This document shows, piece after piece, positions 1,059 to 26,120 of a DNA stretch of 26,138 nt. Position 1 is the first letter of the stretch. Each line of letters opens with the position of its first letter. Both the position numbers and the translations under genes were made by a program. The notes beneath the pieces were generated by a model, which was not told the origin of the DNA, ran no database searches, and saw only the letters and a program-made list of their open reading frames with translations. This stretch comes from Gracilaria domingensis (taxonomy: Eukaryota > Rhodophyta > Florideophyceae > Gracilariales > Gracilariaceae): the NCBI GenBank assembly GCA_022539475.1, contig VCMS01000469.1:1-26138 (forward strand), in the 5' to 3' direction.

Positions 1059-1097
1059 TCTCTGCGTTGTAGACTCGTCTACCGCTTTGGTCTCAGA

Positions 1098-1493: not shown

Positions 1494-1634
1494 GGTAAAG
1501 AATTCATCACTTGATATACAAGAAATTCCAATCTCATGGTAGTCCCCACAAATCCGCTACAAATGTTCCAGCAATCCAGGACTTCTCGCCACCTTCAACC
1601 CCATCTCTGCAAATCTTGCCAAATGCTTGATATT

Positions 1635-3205: not shown

Positions 3206-3485
3206 TATATGGTGCCAGTGTGTGTGATATACACGAGTCCTGGTGTTCTTCAAATCGTACGTTTGCTCCCGTGAAGTTGCAACCGCTCGTGTTCGAATCT
3301 CCGCCCTTTCTCGCGTGAGCACAATGGACGCAACCACTCACGTTCAAAACGGCTGCAATGCCCACGTGAGCAGTGTGGGTACAGTTCCTGATGGTTATAA
3401 ATGGTTGGATCAATGTCTGATTGCGTCCTGGTTGACCACTGTCCCCGCCTTTCATCATCTTTGAACATCGCCCGAGCGCGGTGTG

Positions 3486-4359: not shown

Positions 4360-5814
4360 ATGGCGTCCACCGGAAATGACGCTCCTCGGACTGTTAAGCA
4401 GAGTGTGCTGGCCGATGAGAACCACGGCACGGTATCCTCTAGCGCATCCTCTAGCGCGTCGTTCGATTCAGCCAGCATGGCAACGCGTTTCTTGAAATGT
4501 TGGGGGTTGTTCATTGAATTGCGAGATGCGTATGCCGCTTCAAGAAGTGGTACTGGTAATCCGCGTGAAGTTGGGTATACGGAAGTTGTGGAATACGCTG
4601 TATCAAACCGTGAACACCTGGCATGTGCACGAGAGTTCATCACCACTGCGGTCAAGGGTCCTTTCCAAAGCTACTCCGCAAAAGAAGTCACGAAGATCTG
4701 TCTGGACGTGCGTTTTCTGAGCAGGGTCTACAAATATACGCGTATCACTGATCTAGACGACGAGAATTCTGATCGGCGCGTGAGAGATTTGTTTACCTGG
4801 AGTCTTGAAAAGGATGTCGACAACGGTAACTCGTTCATAGAACGGGCTTTCTGGAATGACCTTTTCAAACGACATGGTCCAGGCAGTAAGCAGACGAAGA
4901 GAACTACGTTCAGGATTGGGCCTCCCACTCGTTTTCAGCAGTTACTCTATCTCTCTTTCGTGAAGCATATAACTTCGGAGAGAAATCTCCCAGCGGCGAA
5001 GAGAGGAAAGACCGGGAAGGGAACCCATAGAGCTGTGCAGTTCGTCGACGGCTACATAGCTTCGAATGGGACGCACGGGAGACGGATGGCACATGCAGTG
5101 CAAACGATTTGTAAGGGATGGGATTTCTTTGCCTCAACCTTAGGCTTTGGTGATGGTGAGCAGATGTTGCTGCCATACCTGCTTGTAGAAAAGAAGTCGC
5201 TTGGGTTCCATGTCATTGAATCTCGCTCTGTTGGGTACAGTCCGGAGTCAGCTTTTCATACGTTGGGGGAAGAACTGAAACCCACGTTGGATGTGAACGA
5301 CACCGTTTCTTGGGTTCATACTCTTCCGGATACTATCGACGCCAACTTACGGGAGTTGGCAAAGGAATTCTTGGCAGATTTCAGCAAGATTGTGTTGAAT
5401 GGCTTCCTATACAAAATGTCCCCAACGTCAAGATGGAATTTGTTGGAAAGCTTCAGACCTGGCCGCCCCGCAAGAGTACCACCCCGTTTCAATGTATTCT
5501 CCAAAGAGTACGTGTCTTCTATTCGTCAAGCGATGTCTGTACATAACCTCCAACCATCTCGACTTATCCCTAGGGCCGCTTCTTCAGGGCAGGATGGAGG
5601 AAGTAATACCGTCACGGTTAAGGTTGAGGACTCGATACAGATTCCGAGCTCCTCCAAGAGGAACGCCGCAGAGAAAAGCTCAGTTAACTCCGATGTCATC
5701 GTCATCCTCGATAGCGACAATGAAGAAGGTGATACACCTGGTGCCTCTGTTGGGGCGAAAGATAACGTTCCAGATGGGGTTCTCCCCCCTCCGTCTGTCT
5801 CTTGCAGATGCTAG
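4360..5814 (+). CDS. Unknown 484-residue protein with SUMO consensus site and C-terminal SIM
   Basis: The frame is open from 4144, but the first codon there is GTG; the first ATG is at 4360 (MASTGNDAP...), giving 484 residues. The N-terminus (1-40) is Ser-rich and disordered. Residues ~42-390 look folded, helical and aromatic-rich, with no motif I recognise. The tail is disordered and carries VKVE (Lys ~421), a canonical SUMO-attachment consensus, then VIVILDSDNEE from residue ~446, a textbook SUMO-interacting motif. This pairs it with the divergent minus-strand gene, which also ends in a SIM. The stop is TAG 5812-5814. A pyrimidine-rich run ending TTGCAG at 5806 could be a 3' splice site, so the last residues may differ in the mature mRNA. 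Coding potential is strong; the function is unknown. Confidence 0.75.
   Translation: MASTGNDAPRTVKQSVLADENHGTVSSSASSSASFDSASMATRFLKCWGLFIELRDAYAASRSGTGNPREVGYTEVVEYAVSNREHLACAREFITTAVKGPFQSYSAKEVTKICLDVRFLSRVYKYTRITDLDDENSDRRVRDLFTWSLEKDVDNGNSFIERAFWNDLFKRHGPGSKQTKRTTFRIGPPTRFQQLLYLSFVKHITSERNLPAAKRGKTGKGTHRAVQFVDGYIASNGTHGRRMAHAVQTICKGWDFFASTLGFGDGEQMLLPYLLVEKKSLGFHVIESRSVGYSPESAFHTLGEELKPTLDVNDTVSWVHTLPDTIDANLRELAKEFLADFSKIVLNGFLYKMSPTSRWNLLESFRPGRPARVPPRFNVFSKEYVSSIRQAMSVHNLQPSRLIPRAASSGQDGGSNTVTVKVEDSIQIPSSSKRNAAEKSSVNSDVIVILDSDNEEGDTPGASVGAKDNVPDGVLPPPSVSCRC
5781..5806 (+). other. Possible 3' splice acceptor near the end of the 4360 gene
   Basis: A run of pyrimidines (TCTCCCCCCTCCGTCTGTCT) leads into CTTGCAG. 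GT dinucleotides at 5729 (AAG|GTGATA) and 5741 could be donors. If 5729-5806 is removed, translation would pass into a frame open to TAG at 5966-5968, giving a Ser/Lys/aromatic tail right after the SIM. Without transcript data this remains an option only. Confidence 0.3.
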
Positions 5815-5824
5815 TTTTTGGCGA

Positions 5825-5924
5825 GGGTCGTCCAGAAAGTGGCAAGGGTCGTCCAGTAAATTTTTTGAAAAAATATCGAGATCAATTATTTCAAAATTTG
5901 AAGATAACTGCTTGGGTCGTCCAG
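5825..5924 (+). repeat. Three copies of the 11-mer GGGTCGTCCAG
   Basis: Exact copies start at 5825, 5846 and 5914, spaced 21 and 68 bp, just downstream of the 4360 gene's stop. The first two also share a flanking G/A-rich context, making a 21-bp tandem unit. They could be protein-binding sites in the 3' untranslated region or a minor duplication. Confidence 0.6.
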
Positions 5925-6289
5925 AATCGCTGTGCAGTAAATACTGGTGGGTTTTCCACTCGTGCTAGTTCTTTAGTCGAAGTCTACCTGAACGGTATTT
6001 CGCGAAGTCTAGGTTCAGTTTCCATTAAGGTGCACATTACACGATACCTTCTGCGGAATAATACCCTGCAACGCATGGAATACTGTTGCTAGTACAGATG
6101 ATGTCCATTATAAAATCATACCGTTTTATTCGTATCTATTCTTCTATCGACCGTTTTTGCTCACCACTACTTCGCTATATTAAACATACCATTTCCCCAT
6201 GATGAAGCGGGTGTAGGCGCAATCTGCGGCAGATGCCGCAGAGGGCACCTCCACCGAAGTGCAGTATCGGTAGAACACATACGCACTCC

Positions 6290-6322
6290 GAGAGGATGAG
6301 GCGCGAAGCGCCTCATCCTCTC
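6290..6322. repeat. Perfect 15-bp stem hairpin
   Basis: GAGAGGATGAGGCGC at 6290-6304, a GAA loop, then the exact complement at 6308-6322. It is GC-rich and immediately followed by a second hairpin, so the two form a paired structure. There is no U-tract typical of a terminator. Confidence 0.85.
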
Positions 6323-6323
6323 C

Positions 6324-6375
6324 GTTCCTCATGTAGGGAACCATGCCCAGATGCATGGTTCCCTACTTGAGGAAC
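6324..6375. repeat. 23-bp stem hairpin next to the preceding one
   Basis: The left arm 6324-6346 begins GTTCCTCATGTAGGGAACC; the loop is CCAGAT; the right arm 6353-6375 is complementary with one mismatch. The length and near-perfect pairing resemble a small-RNA precursor stem or the two ends of a tiny MITE. Confidence 0.8.
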
Positions 6376-6789
6376 CCGCACCTGCAACTCGTGAGCTACG
6401 TCCGCATCAAAATTCGTTTACCTCTATACGCAAGCAGAAAGTATCCATAAGTTAGTCAAAGATCCGTTGGATACATTTGAAATGCGATGGAACGTACCAT
6501 TGATAAAACAAAACAGAAACGTTGCGCTAGAAAATTCGAGGGACCTAGTAACTCGCAAAAGGAAGAAGAAGAAGGAAAGGGATCCGTTAGATTACCAGCA
6601 ATTCATTCATCGTAAAACGCGAATGGTCTCGAAGCGAGAACTCACAAGCAACGACACCAAGAATGCTCATGCAGCAAACATACCGCAAGATGCGATAAAC
6701 GAAAGAGCAGCCTATGTCCTAACCAAGTACCAGAATCGTCTATCCCGAACAGTCAGAGATCCAAGATCGCCAAGAAACCAACTTGGTTT

Positions 6790-6874
6790 GTTGCGCTATA
6801 GGCTCTAGCTTCTCGCGTCTTGCGCTACTTTTGAAAAGTAGCGCAAGAGGCGAAACTAGAGCCTATGGCGCAAC
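6790..6874. repeat. 85-bp inverted repeat (about 40-bp arms)
   Basis: Arms starting GTTGCGCTATAGGCTCTAG and ending with the complement CTAGAGCCTATGGCGCAAC meet at a centre of CTTTTGAAAAG. There are a few mismatches (for example T/C near the outer end and a TCTCGCG/CGAA difference mid-arm). It could be a MITE or a microRNA-type precursor. Confidence 0.8.
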
Positions 6875-7127
6875 GAAATGAACCATTAGTCGCGTACTTA
6901 CAGTCGTCACTTTGGGTTACCAGGTTCCCGTTTTCACCCTTCAACTCGTTCTATATCTTGAGCAAATAGAAGAAGTTGGGGGTGATTAGCTTATTTCTTG
7001 CCGTTTGCATGTCGCAGAGCGCGAAGAAACGTGGTGAGGATTGGTTAGTTTAGAGCAAAGATACGTGGAAGGATATGGAAGAACGTACGAATAGACTGCA
7101 CGGAATACATCCGTGAGATACGGATGA

Positions 7128-7201
7128 CTCCGTCCTACTTTTTTCCGCCCTCTACTTTGAGGAGCCTCCATAAAGTAGAGGGAGGAAAAAGAGGGACGGA
7201 G
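7128..7201. repeat. 74-bp imperfect inverted repeat
   Basis: The left arm (CTCCGTCCTACTTTTTTCCG...) and right arm (ending GAGGGACGGAG) are about 31 bp each, with a short loop GAGGAGCCTCCAT that is itself partly self-complementary. Flanking CGGATG/CATCCG fragments suggest the symmetry once extended further. Confidence 0.7.
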
Positions 7202-7474
7202 CGGAGTATAACGCGAGGATGTGGATGGCACGGATCACGACGGTAACGGAAGGTCGGACGTCGGAGGCGCGGCGGCGGCGGCGGAGGGAAGAGATTTATT
7301 TTTCTGTGCGAGATTGGACAGGTGTACAGCTTACAACGTTGGAGAACCACAGGTTTATAACCAGTGGTAGATGATACGAGAAGTAAACCCTTGTGTTGAG
7401 GTCGACGTGTACCTACGTTCGTTTTTGAACGAAAGCACGTGATTTAAACTCAAAATATATTCTCCGTTCTCAGC

Positions 7475-9480
7475 ATGACGTCGATCTTGACTGTCGCTCG
7501 ACATCCTTCTCCCTTCGGACGACCTTTCCTTGAAGTCTTTGTCGTCGTTTCTCGTTCATTTCTTCTTCCCATGGTCTACTACTGTACACATGAGAAGCGT
7601 GGGTGCCCCTTCGTTACTCGCCGAGGAGTCTTATCTCTTCAACAGCATGTCAACCATTGCCCGTTTCGTCTGAAAGCTGCGCTGGAAGACGACAATAGGC
7701 GGCCCATTCGGAGAAGCAAACGTCTCAAGCTTTCCGCGCACGCGGCCGCATCTTCCGAAACGGTCACTGCCCCTTGTCGCCTTCCCGAGCCTCCGGCGTC
7801 CGAGGACATCGTTGACCACACTCCGTGCGCCCCTCCCATTCCGGACACTTCGCATTGTGTTTCTCCTTCCCCGGGTTCCGCGTCGTTAGAGCAAGAACAC
7901 GGAAGCAATTCCCGCCCAGTGCCTTCTGAGGAGGCCCTCGGTGATTTGCATATGGATTATCTCACGGTTTGTCTGGTTTCAGTAGCTTCCAACCTTGGTC
8001 ATCGTGAGGCACACGAGCTAATTGAGCTACTTCGGGGCCCGCGATTCTCGCAAAAGCGATTCAACGAGACCATAACAAGTTCCAAGCGCTGTACAGAACT
8101 GAAGAACGCCATTTTCGACCGATACGCCTCAAAGGACGGTTTCAATCGAAGAACTGTCTGGCCAGAAGGATGTACGTTCAGCGCCACCCTCTACACGAGA
8201 GACCCCGTTCAGACACTTTTGAAACAGCTCCAGTTGGCTAACAACGAAAACACATTCTTCCACCCTATACCTCAGACCCACTCCACGAAAATATCTCACC
8301 CCATGTCCGGCTCTCTCCCAAGAGACGCCACCTCAAAACTTAAGGAAATGGTCATGGGCTCGTTGGATAGTAGAATAGTGTGGTACTCCCAAGAAATAAG
8401 TTACAGTGAATCTTTCGTAGGTCTTCTGCAGGTATACACCGATAAGTCTTCAACAACTCTAAAGCAAACATCAGTTACCGCCTATCCTCTTCACCTCATA
8501 TTTCTCAACTTCTCCGACGAGCTACGCCGTAAGTGCATCCGTGATGACCTCACAGTAGTGGCATACTTCCCTACCACACTGATCGAAGTTTCCGCATCTG
8601 AAGCAGACGCAATGCCATTCGTTTCTAGCAAGTCTCTACGCGAGTCCAGGATGCAAATCCTTCAAGAATCTCTTCGTCAAGTCCTGGAGCCCATTCTAAA
8701 TCTCACGCAGAAAGTTTTCAGTTCATCGGCGAAGACAAACTAAGTCGAGTGTGCCATCCTCTGCAAGTTTTCGTGCGGATACATTTGAGGCTAAAGACAT
8801 TCTGTTAACTCTTCACGCGACCAAAACGGGGAGCTCCTGTCATAGATTCGGGGCCCCTCCCTCATCTTTATGCAGTAGTATTCTTACTTCATTCACTGGA
8901 CCCTCTCATGACCAAACCAAAAGCGTTAGAGATACATACTCAGTTATTCTAGAATATGCAAAGAAAGACGAGGCAGGAAGAAGTATATGTCTTGCGAGGG
9001 AGAGTATATCTCAGGCGGTACTCTCAAGCGTTCTGATTACATATCTCTTATTCCGTCGTTCATCGAAACCCCCTTGACGGTAGGATTGATCCAGAGTTTG
9101 TTTCTATGCATTCTGTTGGGAACAAGGAGAGCTCTCTTCGAACAGTTACGCAACTTGCATCCAGACAAATTGAAGCTGATTAATACTCCAGAAATCGAAA
9201 ACCTCTAGTCAGAGACGCTACTCACTGCAATAGAATCATCCAGTCACGTTTATTTCGAACGATACGTACTCAAATCAGCAACTTTACAAACGCAAATCTA
9301 TCCCCAATGCAATGCAACTTTTTTGCCAAAGGTTTACATATAGATTTGTCCACGACGAAGAAAGGCAGGTCACTGAATGGAACCTTCACAAACGCAGATC
9401 TCCTTTGAATGATGGAGGCCAAAGCATACAAAAACCTTGACATGGTTTTCCTTTCGTAAAGGAATTCTTTGAAATCTGAT
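7475..9480 (+). pseudogene. Decayed Plavaka/KDZ-like transposase, copy 1
   Basis: The longest intact part runs from ATG 7475 (or, better by comparison with copy 2, ATG 7571) to TAA 8741-8743. It starts with a C2HC zinc finger (Cys5, Cys12, His26, Cys30 counting from 7571), then a Pro/Ser-rich linker. A conserved block follows (SATLYTRDPVQTLL), then TDKSSTTL...AYPLHLIFLNF...RRKC...VVAYFP near 8430-8590. That is the pattern SDKT-LT...YPV-L-IGN...RRK...L-AYLP of Plavaka/KDZ transposases. Line-by-line similarity to the minus-strand copy at 20.6-23.8 kb continues past the stop in shifted frames. PSSASFRADTFEAKDIL lies near 8751, and HIDLSTTKKGRSLNG and LDMVF near 9340-9445. The frame breaks at about 8716, and stops interrupt the later part. 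Similarity is lost after ~9480, so the C-terminal third is missing or unrecognisable. No terminal repeats or target duplication were identified. Confidence 0.7.
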
Positions 9481-10838
9481 AGGGAGCGCAGGACAGGGCT
9501 TCAATCAAAACAGTTTTCTCTCAGTACTCGGGCGTCGCTTGCACTAGTTATAGGTGCAATCGTGGCGCATGATGTAATGAAAACTCTATTTCGTCCCTTC
9601 GGTGGCAGATTGAAGCCTTTAACGCTCCTCGACAAAGTCGTGGGCAGGAATTCATAGCTCTAGAACTGGGAGTCTGAGGTTTTATCTCATATCTCAACAG
9701 AAGAAAAACTAGCACCATTGGCAGCCTTTTACGGCATCTCCGCAACACGTCGGTTAATGTCTTCTCTTGTATTGTTGGTGACAGGCTTTGTTAACGGAAG
9801 GTGAAGCGATACGATTTCAAAATCGGAACGATAATCATGTGCTACCACCTCAAGCACACAGGGCTGAACGGTTTTCATGTCTACCATCTGTTTTGCTTTC
9901 TGCGACGACTCTCGTCGCCATTCTGTTTCATAGAGTTTTATACTGAATGAATTTAGCATACAAGAGCTGCTACAAACCCCGTTCTCTAAACCTCTGAAAA
10001 TCATGTAGTAGTTAGCCTATCAGGACTCCATTTAATTATTTATGGTGTTTCGCAGAGAGCTCGCTCTATTACCCCTATAAATCCGGTATTATATGGTCGT
10101 TGGAGGCCTTCATCGCTGTTTGTCAGACTGTCACAACGAACAAATTAGATTCAGATATATAAATTGAACGCTAGAGCGGAAGCGCTCATGCTATTAGATA
10201 ATACCTTATCTTCATCCTCGGTAGAATTTGTATCTTCACGGGAAAAAGTGGTGGCGAGTATTTAAGTAGCTACATGCTGTCGTCACTCTGTTTTTTTATG
10301 CATCTCATCCCTGCGCATTACCACTTTTGTGCGTGAGGGTGTTGGAGCGCTTCGGTGGTACGTCTCTTCGCCACTTCGATCAGTTTAAATAGTGTAGTGT
10401 GTCAGACACTACACAAATTGTAACAAGGTCGCGTATTATGTTACTGGTTGAGCATCAATTGGATGAAAAAACTAGTTGATTTATCTCTAAAAGATCTGTA
10501 CTGAGCTCGCAACAAAATCGTTGCCAGGAATGCAACCGATTGTGTTTTGGGAGGTATCAAAACGCTACAGAATGGCCTCAAAAAGTTCCTTCTAGCGAAG
10601 GGTTTTGGTGGACGTAGATTTATGCGAACAATGGTAGCGCTCTCCATTCATGCGTTTTGAAGCGCTCCTAATACTCAAGATATACTCTAATTAATGTACA
10701 GCTTTTTCCCATCCCGCCAATCCACGTAGACAGCGGTGCCAACGTGTTCGCGGGCGGGTGCATGGTAATGAGTGCAAGAAGTGTTGAGGAAGGGTTTTTG
10801 GGAGGTCTCGGCATGGTGCTAAAATGTGACCAGAACGT
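9481..10838. other. Non-coding or unrecognisable stretch
   Basis: No gene is supported. Minus-strand open frames (for example 9729-10004) have no recognisable motif, although the stretch could include the eroded 3' end of transposase copy 1. A 9-bp hairpin (GTGTAGTGT/ACACTACAC) is at 10392-10414. The sequence is AT-richer than the block that follows. Confidence 0.5.
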
Positions 10839-11262
10839 GCCCACCGGCGTGGGGGGGATCGGTTGTGTTAGGGTGGCTACCATAACACAACCGCACCCCC
10901 CCGTCCGCGGGCACGTTTTGGCCGGTTTTTTAAAAAATTTGCTTTTTTATGCCCTCGGGCGGGGGGGTCCGTTCGTGTTAGGGTACCTACCCTAACACGA
11001 ACGGACCCCCCCGCCCGCGGGCACGTTTTGGCCGATTTTTTCAAAAATGTGCGATTTCATGCCTGCGGGCCGGGGGGTCCGGTCGTGTTAGGGTACCTAC
11101 CCTAACACGACCGACCCCCCCGCCCGCGGGCTCGTTTTCGCCTCATTCTGGTAGCGTCCACAGACCTCCCAAAACACACACCGCACGCATATCCAGCCGA
11201 AACGTAACGTGCCCGCGGGCAGGGTGGTCGAGTTGTGTTAGGGTAGCGACCCTAACACAACT
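10839..11262. repeat. Array of four GC-rich palindromes with TTAGGG/CCCTAA centres
   Basis: Four dyads are centred at about 10876, 10986.5, 11096.5 and 11246.5, giving spacings of about 111, 110 and 150 bp. The best (10951-11022) has 35-bp arms with one mismatch and a 2-base CC spacer: a G-run, then TCCGTTCGTGTTAGGGTA and its complement. The third (11061-11132) has one extra base in an arm. The first and fourth are more eroded; in the fourth only AGTTGTGTTAGGGT and its complement pair exactly. Between them are related spacers (CACGTTTTGGCCG...TTTTTTCAAAAATG). The arms begin in GCCCGCGGGC, itself a palindrome. The structure is a tandem array of a unit of about 110 bp rather than a single transposon. 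Confidence 0.85.
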
Positions 11263-11675
11263 TGATCTCGCGCGCTGCCAATACGACAGAATGACATTAC
11301 GACATGTCTGATGACACCCGTCTGCAACAACCCATGCCAGCAAACCTCCGCGCCGCCCACGGAGCGCGCGGCGCCATTCCTGCAGGCGGTGCGTCGTTCA
11401 ACGACGTTTGCGTGCCAGCTCATCCTGGATGGCCCATGCGTGCGAGACTTGGCTGCTGTGAGCGCGTCATCATGCTACGTGAATCAGCACCAGTTTATGT
11501 GCACCGCGCGGGACCAAGCGCCCTTCGCTATCATGGAGTGGAGACCGGAAACCTCAGGATTCGGGCGCCGCGCACAGTGCGAGGAGTAGCGCGGCGGCGA
11601 CCGCGCTTGTGTGCAGCGCGCGCGTCATGGCGACGAGCTCATTCCGTGCGGCGGCGATGCGTTATATTACCGCGC
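11263..11675. other. GC-rich non-coding stretch
   Basis: Long open frames exist on both strands because of high GC content, but none shows a recognisable domain or persistent coding pattern. Confidence 0.4.
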
Positions 11676-13480
11676 TCAAAGGCGCGGTAGCGGAGCTGGT
11701 TCGCTTTGGAGGCGCGAAGTAGTGACCAAGGCGCGCCTTTTGGTGACGAGGCTGAGCCACCGCGCGGCTCGTGGCGGCTGAGAGCGAGGCGCCCGCAGAA
11801 ATTGCGCGGACGTGGCCCGTAGTAGAAGGTGACAAAGTGAGATCAGACTCAAGCAACAACTGCGGCGAAAACGGCGAAGCTCGTTTACGCGCTCAATATG
11901 GTGTATTAACTCATGCAACAGCTGGACGCGCATCGCTCGCCCTTGGCGCACGCACGCCCGGCTGCGAAGTGCGCGCCCCTTGCCGCGATACGCTTCAGGC
12001 AGCGCTGCGCGTTGCGTGGCCGCTGTTTCGCGCTCGTCAACGCATGGCGCCAAACTCGGCGAGCACGCCGCCGGCCACGAACGCGAGCGCGACGGCAAAC
12101 GGCGGCGATGAGAAACGAGCGCTGCCACTCGCACATCGCCACAAGCATCACCGCGGCCTTGTCGGCGCGCGCAGTGCGGGTGTGCACGTCGGCGCCGATG
12201 ACGCGCGTGATGGCGGCCTACGAAGGCTGCGCGCCCACCAGCAGCACCTCGAAGCCCTTGATCAGAAGCGTCACGGCAGAGAGCACGTCAGTGAGCAGCT
12301 TGTACAGCAACATGCTTAGCGTGTCAACGTCTGCGATGAGTTCCACCGGCATGAGGTTGAACAGCAACGGCAGCTTGAAGATGGCCACGCTGCTCACTGT
12401 GAGCGCGTCGTTGTCGCGCTGCAGCGCGCGCGCGCACAGCAGCAGGGCCAGCCGCATTGGCGTATAATCGCGCGCCGACGGCGACAGCAGCTCACTGCCG
12501 AGCGTCGCACTGCCTGGCAGTGCCACGAACGCCCGCGCTGGAACGAAGCTGGGTGCTGTCCAGTTGCGGCGCTCCGCCACCGTCGTCGCCACCAGCGTCG
12601 CAGCATCATAGGCGACGCGCGCAGCCACGGGTCCAGTTAGGCGCTCACGAACGTGCGCACGCGTGGCGGCATGCCGAGGCCCGGGTTGGCATTGGTGGCC
12701 GCAGTCGCCACGTACCACGCGCCGCCGCGCTCGGCGAACAACGCCGAGTCGCGCACGCAGTGCTGCCCGCCCAGCCCGGCCGCCGCGAGAAAGAGACGCC
12801 CGGCGCGGTGGCGTGGCAGTGCCGACAGCACGGCCAGCGGCGGCGGCAACGTCGCCGCGCTTGGCCTGACGAAGCGCGGCACGGCGCGAGCCAGCGCGCC
12901 GGAGAAGTCGGCAACGCTGCCACACAACGCGCCCGCGTGCAGCTGGGGCGCGGCGGAAGCCGCTAGCGCGTCGGAGACTAAACTAGGGTCGGGCACAGCC
13001 CAGACGCGCACCGTAACCTAGCGCCACTGCACGCCGTTCCAAGGCCAGGGGGTTGGCGGCGCGCTGATCACACGTGGGCATGGCAGCGCGCTCGTCTACC
13101 AGCAGCGCCGATCGCAGCCGCGCCTCCAGAGGCGGCAGCTGGGCCAGCAACGCCACTACCGAGCGCGACAGCGCGCGTGCAGCCAAAATTGGCGCCTCTG
13201 GCAGCCCCAGCAGCGTGGCGTTTACTGGCACCACCGTTGGCCACGGCCGGCGCCGCCGAGGCTTCTGGCAGCGAGTCGGGCGTGGCCGGCTGGGCTCACG
13301 CGCGTTTGCAGTACAGCAGCAGCGCTACAGGGAGGGCAAGGAACCGGAGAGGGAACGCGGTACGGCGCGCTCATGGCACGTGAGTTGGCCATGGCGGCGG
13401 CAGCAGCGGAGTGAGACGCATAGCATGCCCGTTGGCGGTGCGCGCCGGGCGGCGCCGCGCGCGCGCACGATGCCCCGTTT
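11676..13480 (-). pseudogene. Eroded, GC-rich gene remnant of unknown function, membrane-protein-like
   Basis: On the minus strand, protein-like segments follow one another in different frames: near 13234-12983 (hydrophobic, Ala/Leu-rich), 13011-12637 (ordered segment containing ATNANPGLGMPP), and 12925-12218 (ending with RLALLLCARALQRDND and LLFNLMPVELIADVDTLSMLL). The last part looks like one or two membrane or amphipathic helices. The order and polarity suggest one former gene read from ~13.4 kb down to ~11.7 kb with several frameshifts. I do not recognise the family. Competing plus-strand frames (11771-12319, 12457-12966, 12653-13021) are Arg/Ala-rich and look like GC-driven shadows. GC content and codon use differ strongly from the intact genes at 4.4 and 15.9 kb. 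Confidence 0.3.
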
Positions 13481-13529
13481 GAGCGCTCTGCGGCGGCACG
13501 GGGCTTTGCTGCCGGCGTCGCGTCATGCG

Positions 13530-14184
13530 ATCCGCGTCCAAGATTGTACGTCCATCTTTTCACCATACTGTTGGCCAAACACAATGGCGGGAAGTAAGCC
13601 CTTCGCGAAGAGAATCTTTTAGGGCCAGGTAAGCATATCATTATTTCTCAAGATGACCAGCACACCATTCAAGGGTGCTGGAACCAGGCAGAAAAGTCAA
13701 AGCGTAAGTAAAGAGACGGTATACGAATCAAGCCATCTTGTTCAACGCTCGGCATCCGCTTCATATTAAAAATCATGGAGTGCTCCTTCCACTGCGAGCG
13801 ATCCTCAATTGCCAGTTCTTCAAACAGTCGCAGTATATTCGGATGAGCGCCAAAGAAGATATGCAAGTCTGTATCATACCAATTGCCGTCTTGATCCTTA
13901 CAGGTTGCAACCTTGCCGCCAAGCACATCGCGTGCCTCATACACCACATGGTCGCAGCCAGCATCGGCCAGATACTTGGCACAAGACAGACCAGCCAGCC
14001 AGGCGACCACAAAAGCGACGCACGGCGGCGCGACATCCTGCGACAGTCGGAGCGGTGGTGGTGAGACAGTAGCGTCTGCCTTGTTCATGCGCACGGCGCA
14101 CAGACGCACGCTGGAACACAATGGCGGACGAGCGCGCGGCTGAAGCGGCAGTGATGGGCAAACGGCCTCCATTTGGGAGCTCAT
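13530..14184 (-). pseudogene. PDS: Phytoene desaturase pseudogene fragment
   Basis: From ATG 14184 on the minus strand, after ~55 residues that could derive from a plastid transit peptide, comes [14 protein letters not shown], then [22 protein letters not shown], and [14 protein letters not shown]. This is unmistakably the FAD-binding N-terminal part of plant/cyanobacterial-type phytoene desaturase (carotenoid synthesis in plastids; 15-cis-phytoene to zeta-carotene). The dinucleotide-binding motif is damaged (AWLAG where GAGLAG is expected) and the conserved TGLHIFFGA is TDLHIFFGA. Near 13685 the frame shifts, after which [20 protein letters not shown] and FAKGLLPAIVFGQ continue in another frame. 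A TAA replaces the Glu codon expected in TWPEKI. Similarity ends around 13550-13530. Only about a third of the protein is present. No functional product is expected; the working gene should lie elsewhere in the genome. Confidence 0.9.
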
Positions 14185-14323
14185 AACGTGAGTCGGATGA
14201 GGAAGAATGTCGTCGACATTAAGCGAGCGCGGGAAATTGATAAAGTGTGTCGTTAAAATGTTTACAAAAAAGAAATGAGCTTCAGGCGCACTGCAGCCAC
14301 GATGCAGTCATATGCGATCAGCT

Positions 14324-15194
14324 CTACGAGACAAAGCAGCCTTCTCCCATTAAAAGTGCCAACGGCGCAACGGCCACGTTGTCATCGCTTCCAATCTCGT
14401 CCGCCACCAGCTCTGCGTCCGCGCTCAGCAACGCAATAAGCGCGAACAAGGTGAAGGTACCCGTGCCAGGCAGAACGGCCATTTCGAAGCACGAAAACCA
14501 GCGCAGCAATGCGAAGAAGCTCGTCGATGCGCCCAGCACAAACGCGATGCTGCTGGCCACACTCTGGCCGCTTCTGAGCCACTTTATGGACTAGACTCTG
14601 CGTCCCACCACCTCCAAGCTGGTCGCCAACGCACATGTTCGCCACGGCAACCGCTGTGGCTTGCGTGCCGAACAAAAGTAGCGTGAGCAACAGCAGCGTC
14701 ACACTATAGATCAGCGGTCCGTGAAGAGCCTCACACGCGCTTCCCCCCTTGACAACGCGCGCGCAAACTCGCTTCGCGCGGAGGCGGCCGACGACAAGCC
14801 CGACACTACAAACACAGCGAAGAACAGCAGCGGCACGCAGAAGGGCACACAGATGCGCGTGGGGTATCGCGCTATACAGCGGCCACAACGCAAGGGTTGC
14901 CGGCCGGCAACTGATGGGGATAATCTTTCTCGTCGTGCGCGAAGAAACAAGCCCAAGCGCTGCTACCGGTTGGCAGACGCTCAAGCACAGCGTGACGGCG
15001 CCGACGATCGCCAGCGTGAGCTGCGTGTCGCGCAACCCGTCGGTGAGCGCCGGCAGCATGAGCGCGCGCATCGCGCGCGCTCCAGGCAGGCATGCCGTGC
15101 GGGGCTGATGTAAATGAGCGCGATGCGACGTAGAGCGTGCGTGGGGGCGTGGGATCGGCAGCTCAGAAGCGACGGAAGCGGCCGGAGGAAGCAC
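14324..15194 (-). pseudogene. Eroded multi-pass membrane protein gene remnant
   Basis: The minus-strand frame from 15194 includes several hydrophobic stretches: LTLAIVGAVTLCLSVCQPVAAL near 15030, then HGPLIYSVTLLLLTLLLFG near 14710. Other frames supply further plausible membrane segments (CVPLLFFAVFVVSGL near 14830 and FALLRWFSCFEMAVLPGTGTF near 14490). Switching between frames gives a more protein-like chain than any single frame, which points to decay by indels. The GP-LL...LLFG pattern faintly recalls Yip1-type Golgi membrane proteins, but I would not assign it. It lies directly upstream of the phytoene desaturase fragment on the same strand. Confidence 0.35.
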
Positions 15195-15894
15195 GTCGCC
15201 TTCATGGCGGAAGGCCGCGCGATAAATGTGAGGGTGTAACGCGGCGAGCGAAAGCGGCTAGGCGTCAGCAGATGATGGTCGACTGCGGAGGTCGGCACCT
15301 GAGTCGTCAGCTGCGATCATCGCCAATAGTCAGCTAGAGGAAGCCTCGCGAGACGCCTCCGCGGCATGCGGCCGTTTTGGGGCGAGGCGGGTGCACGAGA
15401 TTGGGGACGGTTCTCACACGTACCTCTACAGAATAACTTTCCGGGAGACAGAGAGGAAGGATCCGAACGCGTGATGTGCGAGATATAGGTGAAGAGTGGG
15501 GACGGTGCGGAATGGGAAGGAATGGTGGGATAATTGAGGTGAGATGCGTTGCGATTTGCATCGCAACTCGGGGAAAAATGGAAACGCAAACTAGCACAAG
15601 CGCAGATTAGAGAGAGGGTCGCGGAAAAGAGTGGATGGGGCGGTGCGGCGAAATAGAACCTTTACAAAAACTAGGAGACCCAAGAATTAAACTGCACGAG
15701 ATGGAATTTAATATTCCAAAATTTCTTAATTCTTTGAGTGCCAGCCACTGCCACCCCCTCGCGCGCCCCAAAAAGCCCAAAAACTAGCTTAGTTTCCAAA
15801 GCGAACACACTATATTCCACTTCGCAGAACACAGACGTCATGACTTTGATGACACGCGCAGGTTAAATGCAATCTAGATGTGGTGCGAGGAAGC
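15195..15894. other. Upstream region of the methyltransferase-SET gene
   Basis: No gene is supported. GC content drops from the eroded island to ordinary composition across this stretch. A nested inverted repeat lies at 15682-15734: outer arms AAGAATTAA/TTAATTCTT around the palindrome-like GGAATTTAATATTCC at 15703-15717. A smaller one (AAACTA/TAGTTT) is at 15781-15795. A TGA at 15850-15852 closes the coding frame upstream of ATG 15895. No clear TATA box can be assigned. Confidence 0.5.
15682..15734. repeat. Nested AT-rich inverted repeat upstream of the methyltransferase-SET gene
   Basis: The 9-bp exact outer arms AAGAATTAA (15682-15690) and TTAATTCTT (15726-15734) flank an inner dyad GGAAT...ATTCC (15703-15717). 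It lies about 160 bp before the start codon and could be a regulatory dyad or chance AT symmetry. Confidence 0.5.
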
Positions 15895-17577
15895 ATGGAG
15901 AAGCAATTCTCAATGCATTGTGTCGGATATGACGAACTGGTGGAGGCCCATGGTACTATCTTCCCATCGGATACATCTTTGGAAGGCAACGTTCAGTTCG
16001 TGCTCACAGACCCACCATATGGCATCCGCGACAGCGAGTACGACGAATTGGCTGACGATGATATGGACAATAATGCGGACATCATGGCATCCATGCTTCG
16101 ACCAGGAGGACATTTCGTTTTGTTCTGCAGTATCGACCAGTTTGGAGACTGGGAAGAGATTTTGCGAGAGCACAAGTCGGAGGACGCAAGCGGAAAGAAA
16201 ACCGCATCATTCTTATTGGATTCGACGCCCATGAACTTCATTCGTTCTCGTTCGAACCCCTTGAAGAACCCTGCGCGTAATACTACTCGCCTGTTTGGGG
16301 CGACGGAGTACGCCGTGCATGGCGTGAGGAATGGAAACCCGTACGCGGAACAGAAGGTAATGGTGAACTATCAGAACTTCAACTACGTTTCAGCTCGCTA
16401 TCCTGGGCACTATTCTATCATTGACCAGGTTCCAAATCTTACGCCTGGGGAGAGTCTCCGATGGACAGTGAAGAGTGGTAGAAGAATTCGAACCGCGAAG
16501 GCTCGTCCAGAACAAAAGTCGAGGCAACTACTGATGGAGCTGATAGCGAGGTTCTCGAATCTCGGGGATGTTGTGGTTGATCTCTACTCCGGGACGTTCT
16601 CGTGCGCGCTGGCATCTATGGATATTGAGGGGCCTCGGCGTTTCATCGGATGTGAGCAAGATGAGCAGTGTTTCTCTCATGCCAAGCACAATGCTATTGT
16701 GCATTACGCAAGAAAGGTGTGGCGCAATGAATTGAAAATGAAAGAACCGGTTACGAATGAGGTAGTTCAAGCGTCTTATGTGGTGGATGCCAAATTTCCT
16801 GAACGGAAACGAAAGACTTCGACTATATGGAATGCACCCAAGGGATTCCCATCGTACCAATCTTTCCCATTCCATATCATGTCGTACCTATCCACCTATT
16901 GGAATGAACCTGGTCTTATCACTACGTACAAAGAGAAACCGTTCCATGAGTGGCCACTTGCCTTACAAGGGAAGATGACTACGTTGGACAGTCACACTTT
17001 ACTCTCTGTCGAGGCGACATCGCTATGGCTCTATGTGAAGAAGTCGAATATCAAACATGCAGCAAGTGGAAATGGAGTATTTACGAGTAGAGCGTTTTCC
17101 GAAGGGGAGTTTATTGGATACTTTTATGGGACCTTGGTGTATCATGATCTAAGCCGAAGCAATACCACACATTTGACGTATGGAGACGGAATGCTGGGGG
17201 CCACTGCATCTCGGTTCAGAAAGTATTGCATGCAAGTGAGGCTGAAGGGGCAAATGTACAACACTCTCCCGCATTATGATACTGAAGTCAACGCTGGTCA
17301 TGCCTGGATAGTTCCTGCTCCTTTCTGTGTAGCGGGCTATATCAATGACGCGTCATATCGTGAAGGTGATGAGGACAAGGAATTGGAAGAAATGGATTCT
17401 AACATGGCACGCAAACCAAATGTATTCATTCGCCAGCCCACAGAGTATCAGGCTACAACTTTGGGGCTTTTGGAGAACTACAGACTCCTCGTAGTCACGG
17501 CCTCAAGGGACATTAAGGAGCACGACGAAATTTACGTTGACTATGGACCCACATATCCTTGGGAAAGGTTAACCTAG
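15895..17577 (+). CDS. Beta-class DNA amino-methyltransferase fused to a SET domain
   Basis: The first ATG is 15895 (the two codons at 15880-15885 are GTG); stop TAG 17575-17577; 560 residues, uninterrupted. Residues 33-46 (QFVLTDPPYGIRD) contain the catalytic DPPY, followed by MLRPGGHFVLF at 67-76. After ~130 residues come EQKS (207-210, the usual TQKP position), VVVDLYSGTFSCALA (227-240, AdoMet motif I) and IGCEQD (251-256). The order DPPY then AdoMet motif defines the beta class (N6_N4_Mtase), typical of bacteria and phages; DPPY favours N6-adenine, though N4-cytosine is possible. Residues ~378-551 form a SET domain: GNGVFTSRAF, then GEFIGYFYG, GYINDAS (Asn-Asp in place of the usual Asn-His) and EIYVDYG. 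No cysteine-rich pre- or post-SET is visible. The protein would couple DNA methylation to lysine methylation, presumably in the nucleus. The bacterial-type half suggests horizontal acquisition. Confidence 0.88.
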   Translation: MEKQFSMHCVGYDELVEAHGTIFPSDTSLEGNVQFVLTDPPYGIRDSEYDELADDDMDNNADIMASMLRPGGHFVLFCSIDQFGDWEEILREHKSEDASGKKTASFLLDSTPMNFIRSRSNPLKNPARNTTRLFGATEYAVHGVRNGNPYAEQKVMVNYQNFNYVSARYPGHYSIIDQVPNLTPGESLRWTVKSGRRIRTAKARPEQKSRQLLMELIARFSNLGDVVVDLYSGTFSCALASMDIEGPRRFIGCEQDEQCFSHAKHNAIVHYARKVWRNELKMKEPVTNEVVQASYVVDAKFPERKRKTSTIWNAPKGFPSYQSFPFHIMSYLSTYWNEPGLITTYKEKPFHEWPLALQGKMTTLDSHTLLSVEATSLWLYVKKSNIKHAASGNGVFTSRAFSEGEFIGYFYGTLVYHDLSRSNTTHLTYGDGMLGATASRFRKYCMQVRLKGQMYNTLPHYDTEVNAGHAWIVPAPFCVAGYINDASYREGDEDKELEEMDSNMARKPNVFIRQPTEYQATTLGLLENYRLLVVTASRDIKEHDEIYVDYGPTYPWERLT

Positions 17578-18041: not shown

Positions 18042-20594
18042 ATGGCTCCTCAACGTGCGGAGCATGCAGGTGGTAAACCGCGAAAGGCATCGGTACCGCC
18101 GGAGCGCTGGGATACTGGGGTGGCCAAACGTAGGAGCGCGGTCGTCTCACGAAGTAGTGCTACTAATGGGAGAGGTAGCCGAGGCCGAGCACCTCGTGCT
18201 GAACTTCGTTAACCAAAATCTTCATCTACAGTATCGGAAGTAAAACCGAGAAGGAGGTCAGGAGCTTCCACATGCACTACGGAACGCACAGTAAGTGAAA
18301 CCGTTCAAGCCAAGGATAGTGCAATGCGTGGGCCTGTTACACGCCACATGGCTGCAATGGAAGAGCCAAGGGTCAGTGATGATGGAAATGTAGATATCAA
18401 AGCGATGAAAGGAAATAAGAGAAGAACGGCTGTACGTCAGAATGTAAGGAGGACAAGAGGCAGTGGAGGAACAGAAGGTCCTCGTATCGATGATTTTTTC
18501 GACAAGGTGAGAAGTGCGGATGACAATGCGGAGATGGAAACCGTGGATTGCGCCATCGTGAGAGCCGAACCTAGAGCCGAACCTGGGGATAGGGAGATAC
18601 CCAGAAGCGCTGCCGGAACAGAACGTAACAGTTATGATTCGAGAAAAGTGAAGAGGAACGATAAAATGAATGAGGGTGTTTCTCGTGCCAAGAAAAGCAG
18701 CAGAAGAAAGGAGCGGGAGTCCACGGACGCAGTAGATATCCCAAGTGACGTCGAGGACAAGGATAACGTGGAGGCGAACGACATCGTGGACGCCGGAAAT
18801 GCAACGCATATGGCTCCCATCGAAGGCAGGTATGATTCCGTCCCTCATATTGGGTCCAGACACAAGGAAGACGAAGACGAAGACGAGATACAACCGACAC
18901 CAGTCACAGGTGAGTCACAGAGAAACAGGTTCAATCAGGTCAGAAGAAGGACGAACCACGGAAATGAGAATAGACGGGTGGGGAACGATCGGCAACCTGT
19001 CATAGCAAACGCCCGTAGAGAAGTATGGAACGATAAAGATGTTGATCGTGGTGCTTTGTCACGGAGCTTTTCCCTGCATGGTGCAATGGAAGAAGATGAA
19101 GATGAATCCCTTACTCCGCGATACGAGCTTTTGGAAAAGATCGGGAGACTGAAGGGAGATCTGTATCGTACAATAGAGGACATGCAAAGTCTGAAAATGA
19201 GCGTACGACTTGCTCAGAAGAACATAGAGCAACTGGAGGTTAAGGTCAGAGAACAAGAGGTTCTCATACACTCTTTGAGAGAGGCTCTCAGACGTGGAGG
19301 GAAAAGGAACGAACGTGACAGTAACAAGAGCAGGAAGCGGTACGACATTGACGCGAACGACGAGTTTGTTGGTGTTGCGAAGACCGCCTATGACTCCATA
19401 CTTCAATACGCCAAAGACGAGACAAGAGAGCTATGCTTCGAGATGAGTATACCGGCAAGGAACTGGGGCAACCGAAGTGAGACAGTTGGACCTGAGAAAG
19501 ACGACAGTGTGCTGGTTGTTGATGGGAAGGAGATAGTGCCACGGTGCCCAATGGATCTTGCCATAGAGATGAAGGCGTACACGCCATCCGTACGTGGTGG
19601 AGGCGACCATTTGTTGATGCAAATTGCGGAGACGGAGGTAATGATGCCACGTTGGGAATCTATCCGAGTAATGAAAATGGAAGATGGCTGTGTGAAACAG
19701 TTAACGCACGACATTTGTTTGCCCAGAAGGTTGAACCAGGCTTTAAGTGATGCAATAGGTGTTCGAAAACGCCATGCGAAGAAGAAGTTATTGATGGGAC
19801 TAGGTTACGACATGCTTGTAAGGACCCCGATAAAAAATGATGAAAGGGAGCAGAACAAGTATGAAATACAAACCAGAGAGGTACGTGAAAAACTCCTACC
19901 CGAAGATGCAAATGGATGTGAGATTCTGTCGTCGTGGAGAACTCAGAAGGTAGAAGATATATGTTTCTCGGGCTTTAACCCATATCATGCAACCGAAGAT
20001 GAACCATGTGACTTGCTTTTTCGGAACAGCCTGAGCTTGGAGGTGCTGCGTGAGTTCATGGGCTACGACGTTTTACAAACAAGTTCGAGGAATACCGAAG
20101 AGAGGGATCCAGTGGATGGAACAATTATGCATCTGGCACGTCTTGATGCCTGGATAGCGTCCGTTGTTCGCGCGACAGAGTCTGAACGAGGGAGAGGTGG
20201 TAAGAGACAAGTGTTGTTCTCCAACTTGTTCGGGAAATATCTACCACTGGCACTTGAGAGTATACTGAAGACCGTGAGGGTCCGCATGCAGCAGAGTTAT
20301 CCAACAGAGTTCAGAAATGGCCCATCGAATGCTGAAGATGCGCCGCATGGAAATGATGACCGGGTGGGCACTGTGGTTTACTGGATTCCGTCGAAAAGGA
20401 AAATGTACCTTGCTGTCCGAGAAGATGTGTTTATGGGAGAGATCTCTGAGAAGCTCGGAGCTGTACTGGATTGCTATGTTGGATGCTGCAGTCCGGGAGA
20501 CCGTATGTTCTACGACATAACTGCAGAGAGGGATGTGAGGGAAAGGTCTGTGCAAGAAGGATTACATGAGGAGAATTGGATAGAACGTCACTAA
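18042..20594 (+). CDS. Charged coiled-coil protein of unknown function, with one in-frame TAA
   Basis: Two continuous same-frame segments: ATG 18042 to TAA 18210-18212 (MAPQRAEHAGG..., basic, 56 codons), then coding-like sequence straight through to TAA 20592-20594. If translation starts after the TAA, the first good ATG is 18324, giving 756 residues. Residues 1-260 (from 18324) are disordered and highly charged, with Arg/Lys patches and acidic runs (EDEDEDE near 182). Residues ~266-324 have a heptad pattern typical of a coiled coil (LLEKIGRLKGDLYRTIEDM...). Residues ~345-756 look folded but match nothing I know. The N-terminus MAPQ-R resembles that of the minus-strand SIM protein. The TAA sits where CAA (Gln) would fit, as in the 1-2.2 kb locus. 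The stop is 16 bp from that of the convergent transposase. It lies on the same strand as the methyltransferase-SET gene and might act with it. Confidence 0.7.
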
Positions 20595-20610: not shown

Positions 20611-23600
20611 TTACGAAAGTTTGGTGATTGGATGGTAGTGTAAACGAGCTCGGGGATTGCGATAGAATTTGTTAATGTAGAATCGGTGGAACTTCCAGTG
20701 CAATGGAGGGAAAAAGGGGCGTGCGGGATAGTTTTGTCGGAGGATGTGTACCGAGCCTTTGATCGAAGAGAATGGGACGAGACCGAACCATGGGGATACA
20801 GATGCAGTTGTTGACCGTTTTAGAGAATTGGAGGTTTGCAATGTGTGATCTTCCTCGTCATCCGTGGCCCAGCGGAGAGAAATGCAGTTCAAGGATTCGT
20901 CAATGTTATCCAACGGCTCCGTTACCTCGAAGAAGCGAATAAAGGCAAATTCAGAATCGGAATTGCTTTGGTTACATCTGCTAAAGCGAACCAGGGCAAA
21001 GACTTTGCATACCCATGCGGTCGGGAAGTCACAACCGGGAGGAGGAGTTCCATTAACCCGGACGGTAGAGAATTTTGGGGACTTGGAAGGGCCGAAAGAA
21101 GTGGTTGCAAAAATACGTTCACACAAAGAGACCTCCGGCTCTCGCAGTCTAATGCATTGAAAGTGACGATCGTAGTCATCCAGCGAGGGGCAGAATCCAG
21201 AAACAATGTAAGCGGAGTTAACGACGGTGATTTTGATGTCATGGGGGTTGTCCAACGGTTGAAGAGTTTCTAAGCTTAGGGTACGGAAGGAAGAGAGGGC
21301 GTCGCGAGAGATTTGGTTGATGAACTGCAATGTAGTTTTGGAGAACAAATCTGTGAGAGCAGATGACGGGACGTTTGGATGGGACCGTAGATACTTGTCG
21401 GCCGTGATGATGTCGAAGAGGGAGAATGAACTACCATCACGAACCATGGAGGGACACCGCTGCGACCAACGACTGGCCGAGTTGGTAGACATGGAGAAGT
21501 GTTTCCTTACCGAGATGGAGTGTAAGAAATCCTGCGACTCTTGGATTGAGTCCACTGTTTCCTTATGCGCAGTTGATCTTCTGCGAGAGGTACGGCGGTA
21601 GTGGTTCTTGAACAGGAGATGCGCGTGGTCGTACACACCTGCATCACCGAAATGGAGGCTTCCGTATCGACGGATGTCTGGAATGATGTGATCCAGGAGA
21701 TGGAATTTGAGAGTACGAAAGTTGGAGGCCTGGTATGGACCCAAAACTGAGACAGTTTGAGTCTTGAAGTTCTTGATGAGAGTCTCCAAAGAGCGTAAGC
21801 GATCATCAGTCCATTCTGGGGCAGTGTGGTAGTGAAGAACGTTATTGACGAGGTCGGCGTAAGAGGTGAAAATGGTGGTTATTGGGGCGGGAGATACTTC
21901 ACCGCAGCAACGGTCGAAGAATGCACCGATGAAGGGGAAGACCATGTCGAGGGAGCGATAGTCCTTTGCTTCTAGCATGCCTCTGATTCCGTCAGTGGTG
22001 AAGAAGCCGTTGAGAGACTTACCTTTTCAGATGTCGAGAAATCAATATGAAGCCATGGAGCCGGAAACGAGCGTTCGATGTCAGCTAGGATGGAGTTGGC
22101 GTGAGTGAGAATAGATGTTCTGATGGACCGAAACGACTGGAGGATCCATTGAAGCCCACGGAAGTGTGAAGAGAATCGGACTTCAGGCGTTCGATTGTGG
22201 CGAGTTTGATGAGTTTAGAGATGCCAAGGTGAAAGTTGTGAAGGGGCTCGAAGGAGAAGATTGAATAAGGAGTGAGCAGTGAAGAGATGTTGAGAAGAGG
22301 GTAAGATTCCATAAAGGACTTGTATGGAGAGAGAGAGGTGAAGTGGAGAAGTTCTGCAGCTTCTTCTTGAGGTTCCTTGCAACCCGTGGTCTATGGGAGA
22401 GGAGAACAGAATCTGCCTCGAGAAGTAGGTCATCATGTCTTTTTCTGGTTTGCAAAGTGTGTGAGAGGGTTCGCTCTGTGAGAGTAGGTTGGTAGAGGTT
22501 GAGTTTTGAACGAGGGAGGAGATACCGGTGGCAGGGTTTGCTTGGCTTTGTCCATGAAGTACTGCGAGAATGTCCTTGGCTTCGGGGATGTCAGCGATGT
22601 AGTTGGAGATGATGGATGGCATTGACGAAGGACTCCTTTGGCGTCGCGGAAGGGAAAACCCTTCATAAGGATATGATACAAAGGTTTGAGGATGGTTTCT
22701 AGGGACTCCTGAAAGAGCTGCATGCGCACAATGCGGGTCACGCTGGGGGTTGAGGGAGCGACTTCCAAGGAATCTGTGTCAGTGGAGGACGAGTCGGAGG
22801 TGAAGGATGTGGGGTATGTATCCGACGAGTGTGTAGTTCTGCGTGATGCACTTTCTGCGGAATGAGTCATTGAAATTGAGAGGGGTGATGTGAAGAGGAT
22901 ACGACGTAACAGAAGAACTTTTCAAAGAGGTGGAAGACTTGTCTGAATATAGTTGAACGAGGCCGACGAACGAGTCTGTGCCGGTGATACTGGGATCGTG
23001 CCAGATGACGTCGGGGTCCGGAGAATGCATGATATGCCTCTTGATAGTCGGGACGACATGGCGGCCGAGTTCCGAAGCCATAGGGTGTGCGATTGCGGTA
23101 GTTCCTGTTCTTGAAGCTTGTTTGACTGGATGAAAGAAGGAGTTGCTGTGGAATGCGAGACGAAGTTGTTGTAGGAGAACCTGAACGGGGTCCCTGAGGT
23201 AGAGGGTGGCGGAGAAGTTATGGTTTTTGTCATGGATTGATGGTTGAGGTGAACCCAATGGAGCTGACTGTTTCTTCGAAGATTTTGAGTGCAGTTTCAG
23301 ACATTCGGCAGCGGAAGTGATGGAGGTCTGGAAGAGGGAAGAGGGAAAGGTGGATTGCTTGAGAATGTTGATGAGTTCGTCAGCAGAACGCTTTCCGAGT
23401 TTTGTGGCGATGGAGGATATGTAGGTGACGAGGTTATGGATGTGGTCTTTCTGTGAGCGTGGAGAGGGGGAGAAGGCGTTACCTGAGCCTGTGGAAGGGG
23501 ACTGGGAGGCGAGTTGGTGATGCGGGCTGAGTATCTGTGCTGCGTCGGATGAGCGTAGGGAGAGAGCAAGCTGTTCCTGGAGATAAGGGTCGTCGTCTGC

Positions 23601-25935: not shown

Positions 25936-26120
25936 AACTAGCATCCGGAACACAGACGTAGCTTTTCTCCTTCAGGTCTTTGAAGGCTTTACCCATCTCA
26001 TCGTTGAATTCTAGCTTCTGATTTCCGGACGTTGCTGCATGGAGGATTGCCGAAGTTTTGGCAAACTGGCGTGATAACCAACGGTAGTAGCCAGCAGCCA
26101 AGGAAGACTCCTCAGTTCAG
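25936..26120 (-). mobile_element. Ty3/gypsy retrotransposon pol remnant
   Basis: Minus-strand translation gives AAGYYRWLSRQFAKTSAIL, then LEFNDEMGKAFKDLK and VCVPDAS. This is the stretch joining reverse transcriptase to RNase H in Ty3/gypsy polyproteins (GYYRRFI-NFAKIA-PL...F-W-E---AF--LK...P-L--PD). The frame is closed by TGA just upstream (near 26112) and by TAG at about 25904, and there is no ATG head, so it is a short broken fragment. No LTR is visible in the window; the element may continue past the right edge in decayed form. Confidence 0.7.

Follow-up and report, generated by a model that had tools for sequence, protein, structure and literature searches.

The stretch of DNA analysed here (the window) comprises 26,138 nucleotides of the red alga Gracilaria domingensis (contig VCMS01000469.1, positions 1 to 26,138) and holds a damaged copy of a large DNA transposon. 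Within it, an open reading frame (ORF) of 560 codons runs on the forward strand from an ATG at 15895 to position 17577 without internal stop and joins a beta-class DNA amino-methyltransferase (MTase) in frame to a SET domain. ORF analysis, Pfam scans and comparison of copies identify it as the C-terminal 560 amino acids of a transposon gene. The MTase half occupies residues 33–264 (15991..16686, forward strand) and matches PF01555 (N6_N4_Mtase) with E 3.9e-12 and 47 bits against a cut-off of 26.7, while the SET domain occupies residues 392–551 (17068..17547, forward strand) and matches PF00856 with E 6.2e-7 and 30.2 bits against a cut-off of 22.4. In the first domain, DPPY at residues 39–42 is followed by the region RPEQKS...DLYSGTFS, with the S-adenosylmethionine (AdoMet) motif VVVDLYSGTFSCAL at about residues 226–239, and by IGCE at residues 251–254. 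That is, motif IV precedes motif I, which is the beta-class order. The SET domain of the window copy displays SGNGVF, YIND and VDYG, which we take to be the GxG start, the Asn motif and the C-terminal tyrosine of this family, and N484-D485 stands at the position of the Asn motif. The initial annotation, made from the letters alone, had described the same order of motifs ahead of a SET domain in one uninterrupted frame and had remarked on Asn-Asp in place of the usual Asn-His. These observations are confirmed, and both Pfam families that it proposed to search for score above their cut-offs.

Sequence and profile matches of the MTase half in the PDB were to the adenine enzymes DpnA, CcrM and MboIIA, and the predicted chemistry of the first domain is more likely N6-adenine than N4-cytosine methylation. 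The same half matches the DNA methyltransferases of PHROG 67 (E 1.9e-23). A tblastn search of phages returned methyltransferase-like matches in 23 records (best 20 of 23) and a search of plasmids a match in one record, together at 21.5–25.9% identity, with DpnA-like phage enzymes at about 22%. No relatives were found in viral contigs by single protein or profile, and none in prokaryote contigs, in searches with two to six short peptide patterns that distant relatives would escape. Pfam scans of the window and of the copy proteins revealed no chromodomain, but SET instead. By family membership, the predicted chemistries of the two halves are AdoMet-dependent DNA amino-methylation and protein lysine methylation, respectively.

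The gene is not confined to the window. A search of the window's own genome (77.9 Mb in 680 contigs, here named C1 to C680) with the fusion protein gave 89 matches, which correspond to 77 places once merged. Full-length matches comprise 15 at 96–100% identity and 16 more spanning ones at 64–70%. Thus, both domains are spanned at 31 of the 77 places, where matches begin at residues 1–40 and end at residues 545–560, and their pairing is not due to chance. A stop-free frame is present in 12 of these 31. Where the reading frame is broken between the two domains, as it is in a number of copies, we take this as decay, and the pairs of matches with identical scores (C110/C440, C324/C571 and C159/C509) may represent duplicated pieces of the assembly.

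Comparison of copies revealed an inverted repeat, CGTCTGTGTTTCCGG, at both ends of the repeated unit. The pattern of this terminal inverted repeat (TIR; 16 bases, at most one mismatch) occurs 84 times in the genome as compared to twice for the reversed control, and 46 of the 84 repeats could be assigned to places of the fusion gene. An inward-facing TIR lies within 20 kb on the 3' side at 25 of the 77 places, in 14 of them at 8,371–8,463 bp from the match, and on the 5' side at 21 places, in 12 of them at 9,836–9,864 bp; TIRs flank both sides at nine places. Because these distances recur on both sides, the complete unit measures about 20 kb, and the copy on C12 extends accordingly over C12:65378-85356. 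In the window, TIR comparison places the right TIR of the host element, CCGGAACACAGACG, at 25945..25958, and TIR spacing suggests that some 4 kb of the left end lie beyond the contig start. Directly 3' of the window, from position 26139 of this contig (C469) onward, the assembly continues with a run of N. Target site duplications (TSDs) of 2 bp were found in six of ten TIR pairs (TA, TA, TA, CG, AT and AA).

The transposase gene of the element is found downstream of the fusion gene on the opposite strand. In the window it is in pieces (20611..23258, reverse strand; PF18759), whereas the C12 copy scores 84.4 bits to PF18759, the Plavaka transposase family, over a 735-residue open stretch within a 1,110-residue open frame. 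When the best 123 of 672 candidate Plavaka matches are considered, 27 of the 77 places are followed by one on the opposite strand at a distance of up to 12 kb. The gap is 4,631–5,245 bp in 26 of the 27 and 7,593 bp in the remaining one, and 50 of the 123 matches suffice to give these 27 places. The control orientations gave none downstream on the same strand and one upstream on each strand. The element is thus of Plavaka type by its transposase but, because its termini match neither published type, it is neither PlavakaA nor PlavakaB. We conclude that the MTase-SET gene is cargo of a multicopy, approximately 20-kb, cut-and-paste DNA transposon of Plavaka type. An obvious alternative is a single-copy host gene that acquired a bacterial methyltransferase by horizontal transfer, as the bacterial type of the enzyme and its setting in a eukaryotic genome with phycobilisome linkers would permit. 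The linker family PF00427 has 14 matches, which are spread over nine contigs with four on C680, and points to a phycobilisome-bearing alga, most likely a red one. Against the host-gene alternative stand the 77 places, the TSDs and the transposase, and copy number together with the TIRs rules it out. Hence, the idea of one intact eukaryotic gene stands as far as an in-frame fusion encoded by a eukaryote is concerned; what lies in the window is, however, the 3' part of a larger multicopy transposon gene that has been split.

In other copies, the 560 codons of the window form the C-terminal part of a gene of about 1,055 residues. The C12 copy is a single open frame of 1,055 amino acids, whose N-terminal ~495 residues match no family, and the diverged copy on C157 encodes 1,057. 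In the window, the N-terminal part is represented by a truncated stretch of ~477 amino acids, likewise without family match, at 4360..5791 (forward strand, from copy comparison). It is followed by a nested Plavaka-like element of 10,046 bp (5792..15837) with the ends CGTCTGTC..CACAGACG, which is flanked by the TSD TC at 5790-5791 and 15838-15839. Because this insertion splits the gene, the ORF of the window begins at an internal methionine and is devoid of the N-terminal part. The insertion site is uninterrupted in all 14 copies of subfamily A that were compared; other damage in this subfamily includes a deletion in C277 and, a few hundred bp upstream in C166, a fragment of a related element. 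Nor does an intron separate the N-terminal part from the MTase, a possibility that was also considered: all 14 subfamily A copies run through the junction without a break, as do the three of six subfamily B copies that could be aligned, the short DNA query for the junction being unmatched in the other three (L024, L025 and L027).

The fusion is kept by selection. Between C12 and C157, amino acid identity is 64.3% over 1,040 codons, with proportions of differing synonymous (pS) and nonsynonymous (pN) sites of 0.694 and 0.216, respectively. The ratio of nonsynonymous to synonymous rates (omega) is ~0.13 (bootstrap 0.09–0.17) for the whole gene, 0.18 for the N-terminal part and 0.16 for SET. For the MTase part, synonymous divergence (dS) is saturated at an identity of 72.6% and a pN of 0.154, and the SET part is 71% identical. 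The fusion is therefore under purifying selection in two subfamilies, A and B, that are near synonymous saturation. The two halves of the window copy are close to C12, with differences at no more than about 1% of sites (pS 0.013–0.014, pN 0.006–0.008), which indicates that these two copies separated recently.

The same architecture extends beyond these subfamilies. Lineage C (C47; 39–41% identity to the window) carries DPPF and YIND, and lineage D (C382; 35% identity) carries EPPY and Asn-His (YINH) in its SET domain; PF01555 and SET score above cut-off in both. Genome-wide, PF01555 and PF00856 each gave at least 150 matches (best 150 of 328 and best 150 of 311 candidates, respectively, to which the following counts refer). 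A SET domain follows 365–445 bp downstream on the same strand of 76 of the 150 PF01555 matches, as compared to none downstream on the other strand and none upstream on the same strand, and the places of subfamilies A and B hold 34 more of the 150. Most listed N6_N4 methyltransferase-like sequences would thus be accounted for as parts of fusions. None of the 13 SET matches typed on contigs shared with the 31 A and B places overlapped with the latter. Since the architecture recurs in lineages C and D and in these pairs, it is older than any one copy or subfamily. The highest-scoring PF01555 match (C6:483851-484588, 74 bits) has no adjoining SET domain among the matches listed and may be a different methyltransferase gene.

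The Plavaka transposase also accompanies matches from these two genome-wide lists. Within 12 kb downstream, it is found on the opposite strand for 25 SET matches, with no same-strand case as control, and for 32 PF01555 matches versus one same-strand control. For the 25 SET matches, the gaps are 4,459–4,496 bp in 21 cases and 3,538, 3,828, 9,676 and 11,814 bp in the others, among the matches listed. That transposase and MTase-SET genes keep their order and distance in more than one lineage, again among the matches listed, could also be explained by a service to transposition itself: methylation of the ends would tune transposase binding or couple excision to replication, and SET would act on the transposase or another non-histone protein. 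We regard this explanation as quite unlikely.

Three further features of the window deserve mention. A companion ORF of 756 amino acids (18324..20594, forward strand) lies between the fusion and transposase genes and has no family match over cut-off; its stop-to-stop frames reach 953 amino acids in other copies. A second gene of the element (gene 2; 3..3337, reverse strand) is in pieces, runs off the contig start and contains a ParB-like motif, LIDGAHRYVALKEL, recognized by eye. In other copies its C-terminus shows, also by eye, an HxD...H pattern, of which HTD...HAGA is kept between the subfamilies; a 2-oxoglutarate/Fe dioxygenase would be expected to show such a pattern. The C-terminal stretch is 64% identical between the subfamilies (pS 0.653, pN 0.238). 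Gene 2 had no significant match in Pfam, NCBIfam, PHROGs or the PDB, the best ParB lead being SbnI with E 0.61, and Pfam scans of pieces of gene 2 did not report Tet_JBP (PF12851). A genome search with PF12851 gave no matches and was also silent in the control genomes, which were equally silent for PF05063. Finally, the nested element carries a Plavaka transposase fragment of its own (7475..8743, forward strand; PF18759, 28.6 bits). It includes a GC-rich stretch, with 59–70% GC across 11–15 kb of the window (within 11000-15837), and an ORF at 13669-14184 (reverse strand) encoding a flavin amine oxidase-like fragment (PF01593, E 1.4e-22, the first 79 of 443 profile positions). The latter is perhaps phytoene-desaturase-like and possibly represents a captured piece of a host gene.

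What might such a protein do for the element? We propose, with a probability of roughly 60%, that the transposon encodes a dual writer that marks its own DNA and chromatin and is permissive for its own copies, the activities being those predicted for the two domains. The N-terminal region or the transposase would bring the fusion protein to the DNA of the element, the first domain would methylate bases there, and the SET domain would methylate histones on the same chromatin. The chromatin of element copies would thereby be set apart from the rest and would probably be permissive, favouring expression of the transposase and recognition of the ends. That the protein is directed to its own element, and that the result is permissive, we purely infer. 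A permissive mark is favoured because N6-methyladenine (6mA) accompanies permissive chromatin marked by histone H3 lysine 4 trimethylation (H3K4me3) in other eukaryotes, according to PMC12695648, and because an element is less likely to retain a silencer of itself.

Several observations weigh against this proposal or against the transposon on which it builds. Stops interrupt 19 of the 31 spanning matches and many copies are decayed; 40 of the 77 places have no TIR within 20 kb, and 50 of the 77 have no adjoining Plavaka match among the best 123 of 672. No matching TSD flanks four of the ten TIR pairs, including C61, where both ends are of one type, and none is seen in the C12 copy. The termini CGTCTGTG..CACAGACG are unlike those given for PlavakaA (TGT..ACA) and PlavakaB (CATCA..TGATG) in PMC12730594. 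Structure models from single window sequences reached mean predicted local distance difference test scores (pLDDT) of 39 and 29. As to the catalytic motifs, motif I reads YSGTF here versus FMGSG in DpnA, with the first glycine kept and the second replaced by phenylalanine. Asn-Asp in the SET domain is invariant in six aligned copies of subfamilies A and B and recurs in lineage C, and motif IV departs to DPPF in lineage C and to EPPY in lineage D. Within subfamily B, DPPY is retained in C157 and C231, as in the window, and other copies read DPPF, HPPY or NPPY.

These motif changes raise the possibility that one half is dead and serves as scaffold or reader, e.g. an inactive SET domain in A to C (Asn-Asp) or an inactive MTase in D (EPPY). 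The active half may differ between lineages, as the combination EPPY/Asn-His in D reverses that of DPPY or DPPF with Asn-Asp in A to C. However, amino acid identities of 73% for the MTase and 71% for SET between C12 and C157 contrast with nearly saturated synonymous sites, and we consider a dead half doubtful. The main rival to the permissive dual writer turns the sign of the marks: they would be repressive, and the element would limit its own transcription or copy number, or hide in silent chromatin. By analogy, the passages on bdelloid rotifers in PMC8885841 describe that N4CMT puts N4-methylcytosine (4mC) on transposons with silent chromatin in animals without C5-methyltransferases. The genome studied here likewise gave no match to the C5 DNA methyltransferase family PF00145 with exons searched singly, a search in which 10 of 14 control genomes matched. 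N4CMT is, however, described there as a host gene, and a strongly selected self-silencer is less expected to be kept by a multicopy element; we judge repression to be unlikely.

A wider version of the permissive dual writer includes gene 2. The element might carry an epigenetic kit directed at itself. One component would be the fusion protein, a single chain that writes both DNA amino-methylation and lysine methylation of histones; the other would be gene 2, in which a ParB-like domain is joined to a putative 2-oxoglutarate dioxygenase that may erase or modify marks. The host genome would be devoid of enzymes for C5-methylation. This extension is tentative, and we think it rather improbable as a whole; if true, DNA methylation in the host would stem mainly from the element. 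The dual writer by itself predicts N6 or N4 methylation on a 20-kb repeat with dozens of copies, many of which are partial, in a genome without detected C5-methyltransferase. It would also mean that mobile elements can impose, beyond evading, a coupled mark on DNA and histones, by a fusion kept by selection in diverged lineages.

The element can be compared with several known systems. DpnA, CcrM and MboIIA share the beta-class motif order and the AdoMet-binding region, but they are devoid of SET, and the second glycine of motif I is replaced here. The closest host-encoded parallel, put forward in the initial annotation, is bdelloid N4CMT, which according to the passages of PMC8885841 likewise combines a bacterial amino-methyltransferase with a chromatin domain in a eukaryote without C5-methyltransferases. 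This parallel holds for the type of enzyme, the chromatin domain and the lack of a detected C5-methyltransferase; its limits are that the partner in bdelloids is a reader, a chromodomain, whereas it is a writer here, and that N4CMT belongs to the host and not to a transposon. The giant Plavaka repeats of Amoebidium carry recombinase genes with red-algal matches; their cargo as described in the passages of PMC11244446 consists of tyrosine recombinases, and these passages make no mention of MTase-SET. In the open-licence papers searched, we met neither a single-chain fusion of an amino-methyltransferase with SET nor a red-algal Plavaka element.

Transposons with related cargo are nevertheless on record. 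In Phytophthora, HarbingerS and MuDR transposons harbour SET methyltransferase genes (Kojima and Jurka 2014, as cited in PMC12730594). Like the element described here, these are DNA transposons with a gene for a SET histone methyltransferase, but they belong to other superfamilies, and the citing passage is silent on any fusion to a DNA methyltransferase. Fungal Plavaka, KDZ and other transposons carry TET/JBP genes, for which evasion of silencing has been proposed, and Plavaka elements generate 2-bp TSDs, as stated in the same excerpts of PMC12730594. The fungal elements thus resemble ours in combining a Plavaka transposase, an enzyme of DNA modification and 2-bp TSDs. They differ in their termini and in that their cargo is a dioxygenase that removes marks, whereas a writer of DNA and protein methylation is predicted here, in a red alga. 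Taken together, transposon-borne SET and TET/JBP genes are already published, as those excerpts report, and what the red-algal element would add is a predicted amino-methyltransferase and a SET domain carried as cargo in a single chain.
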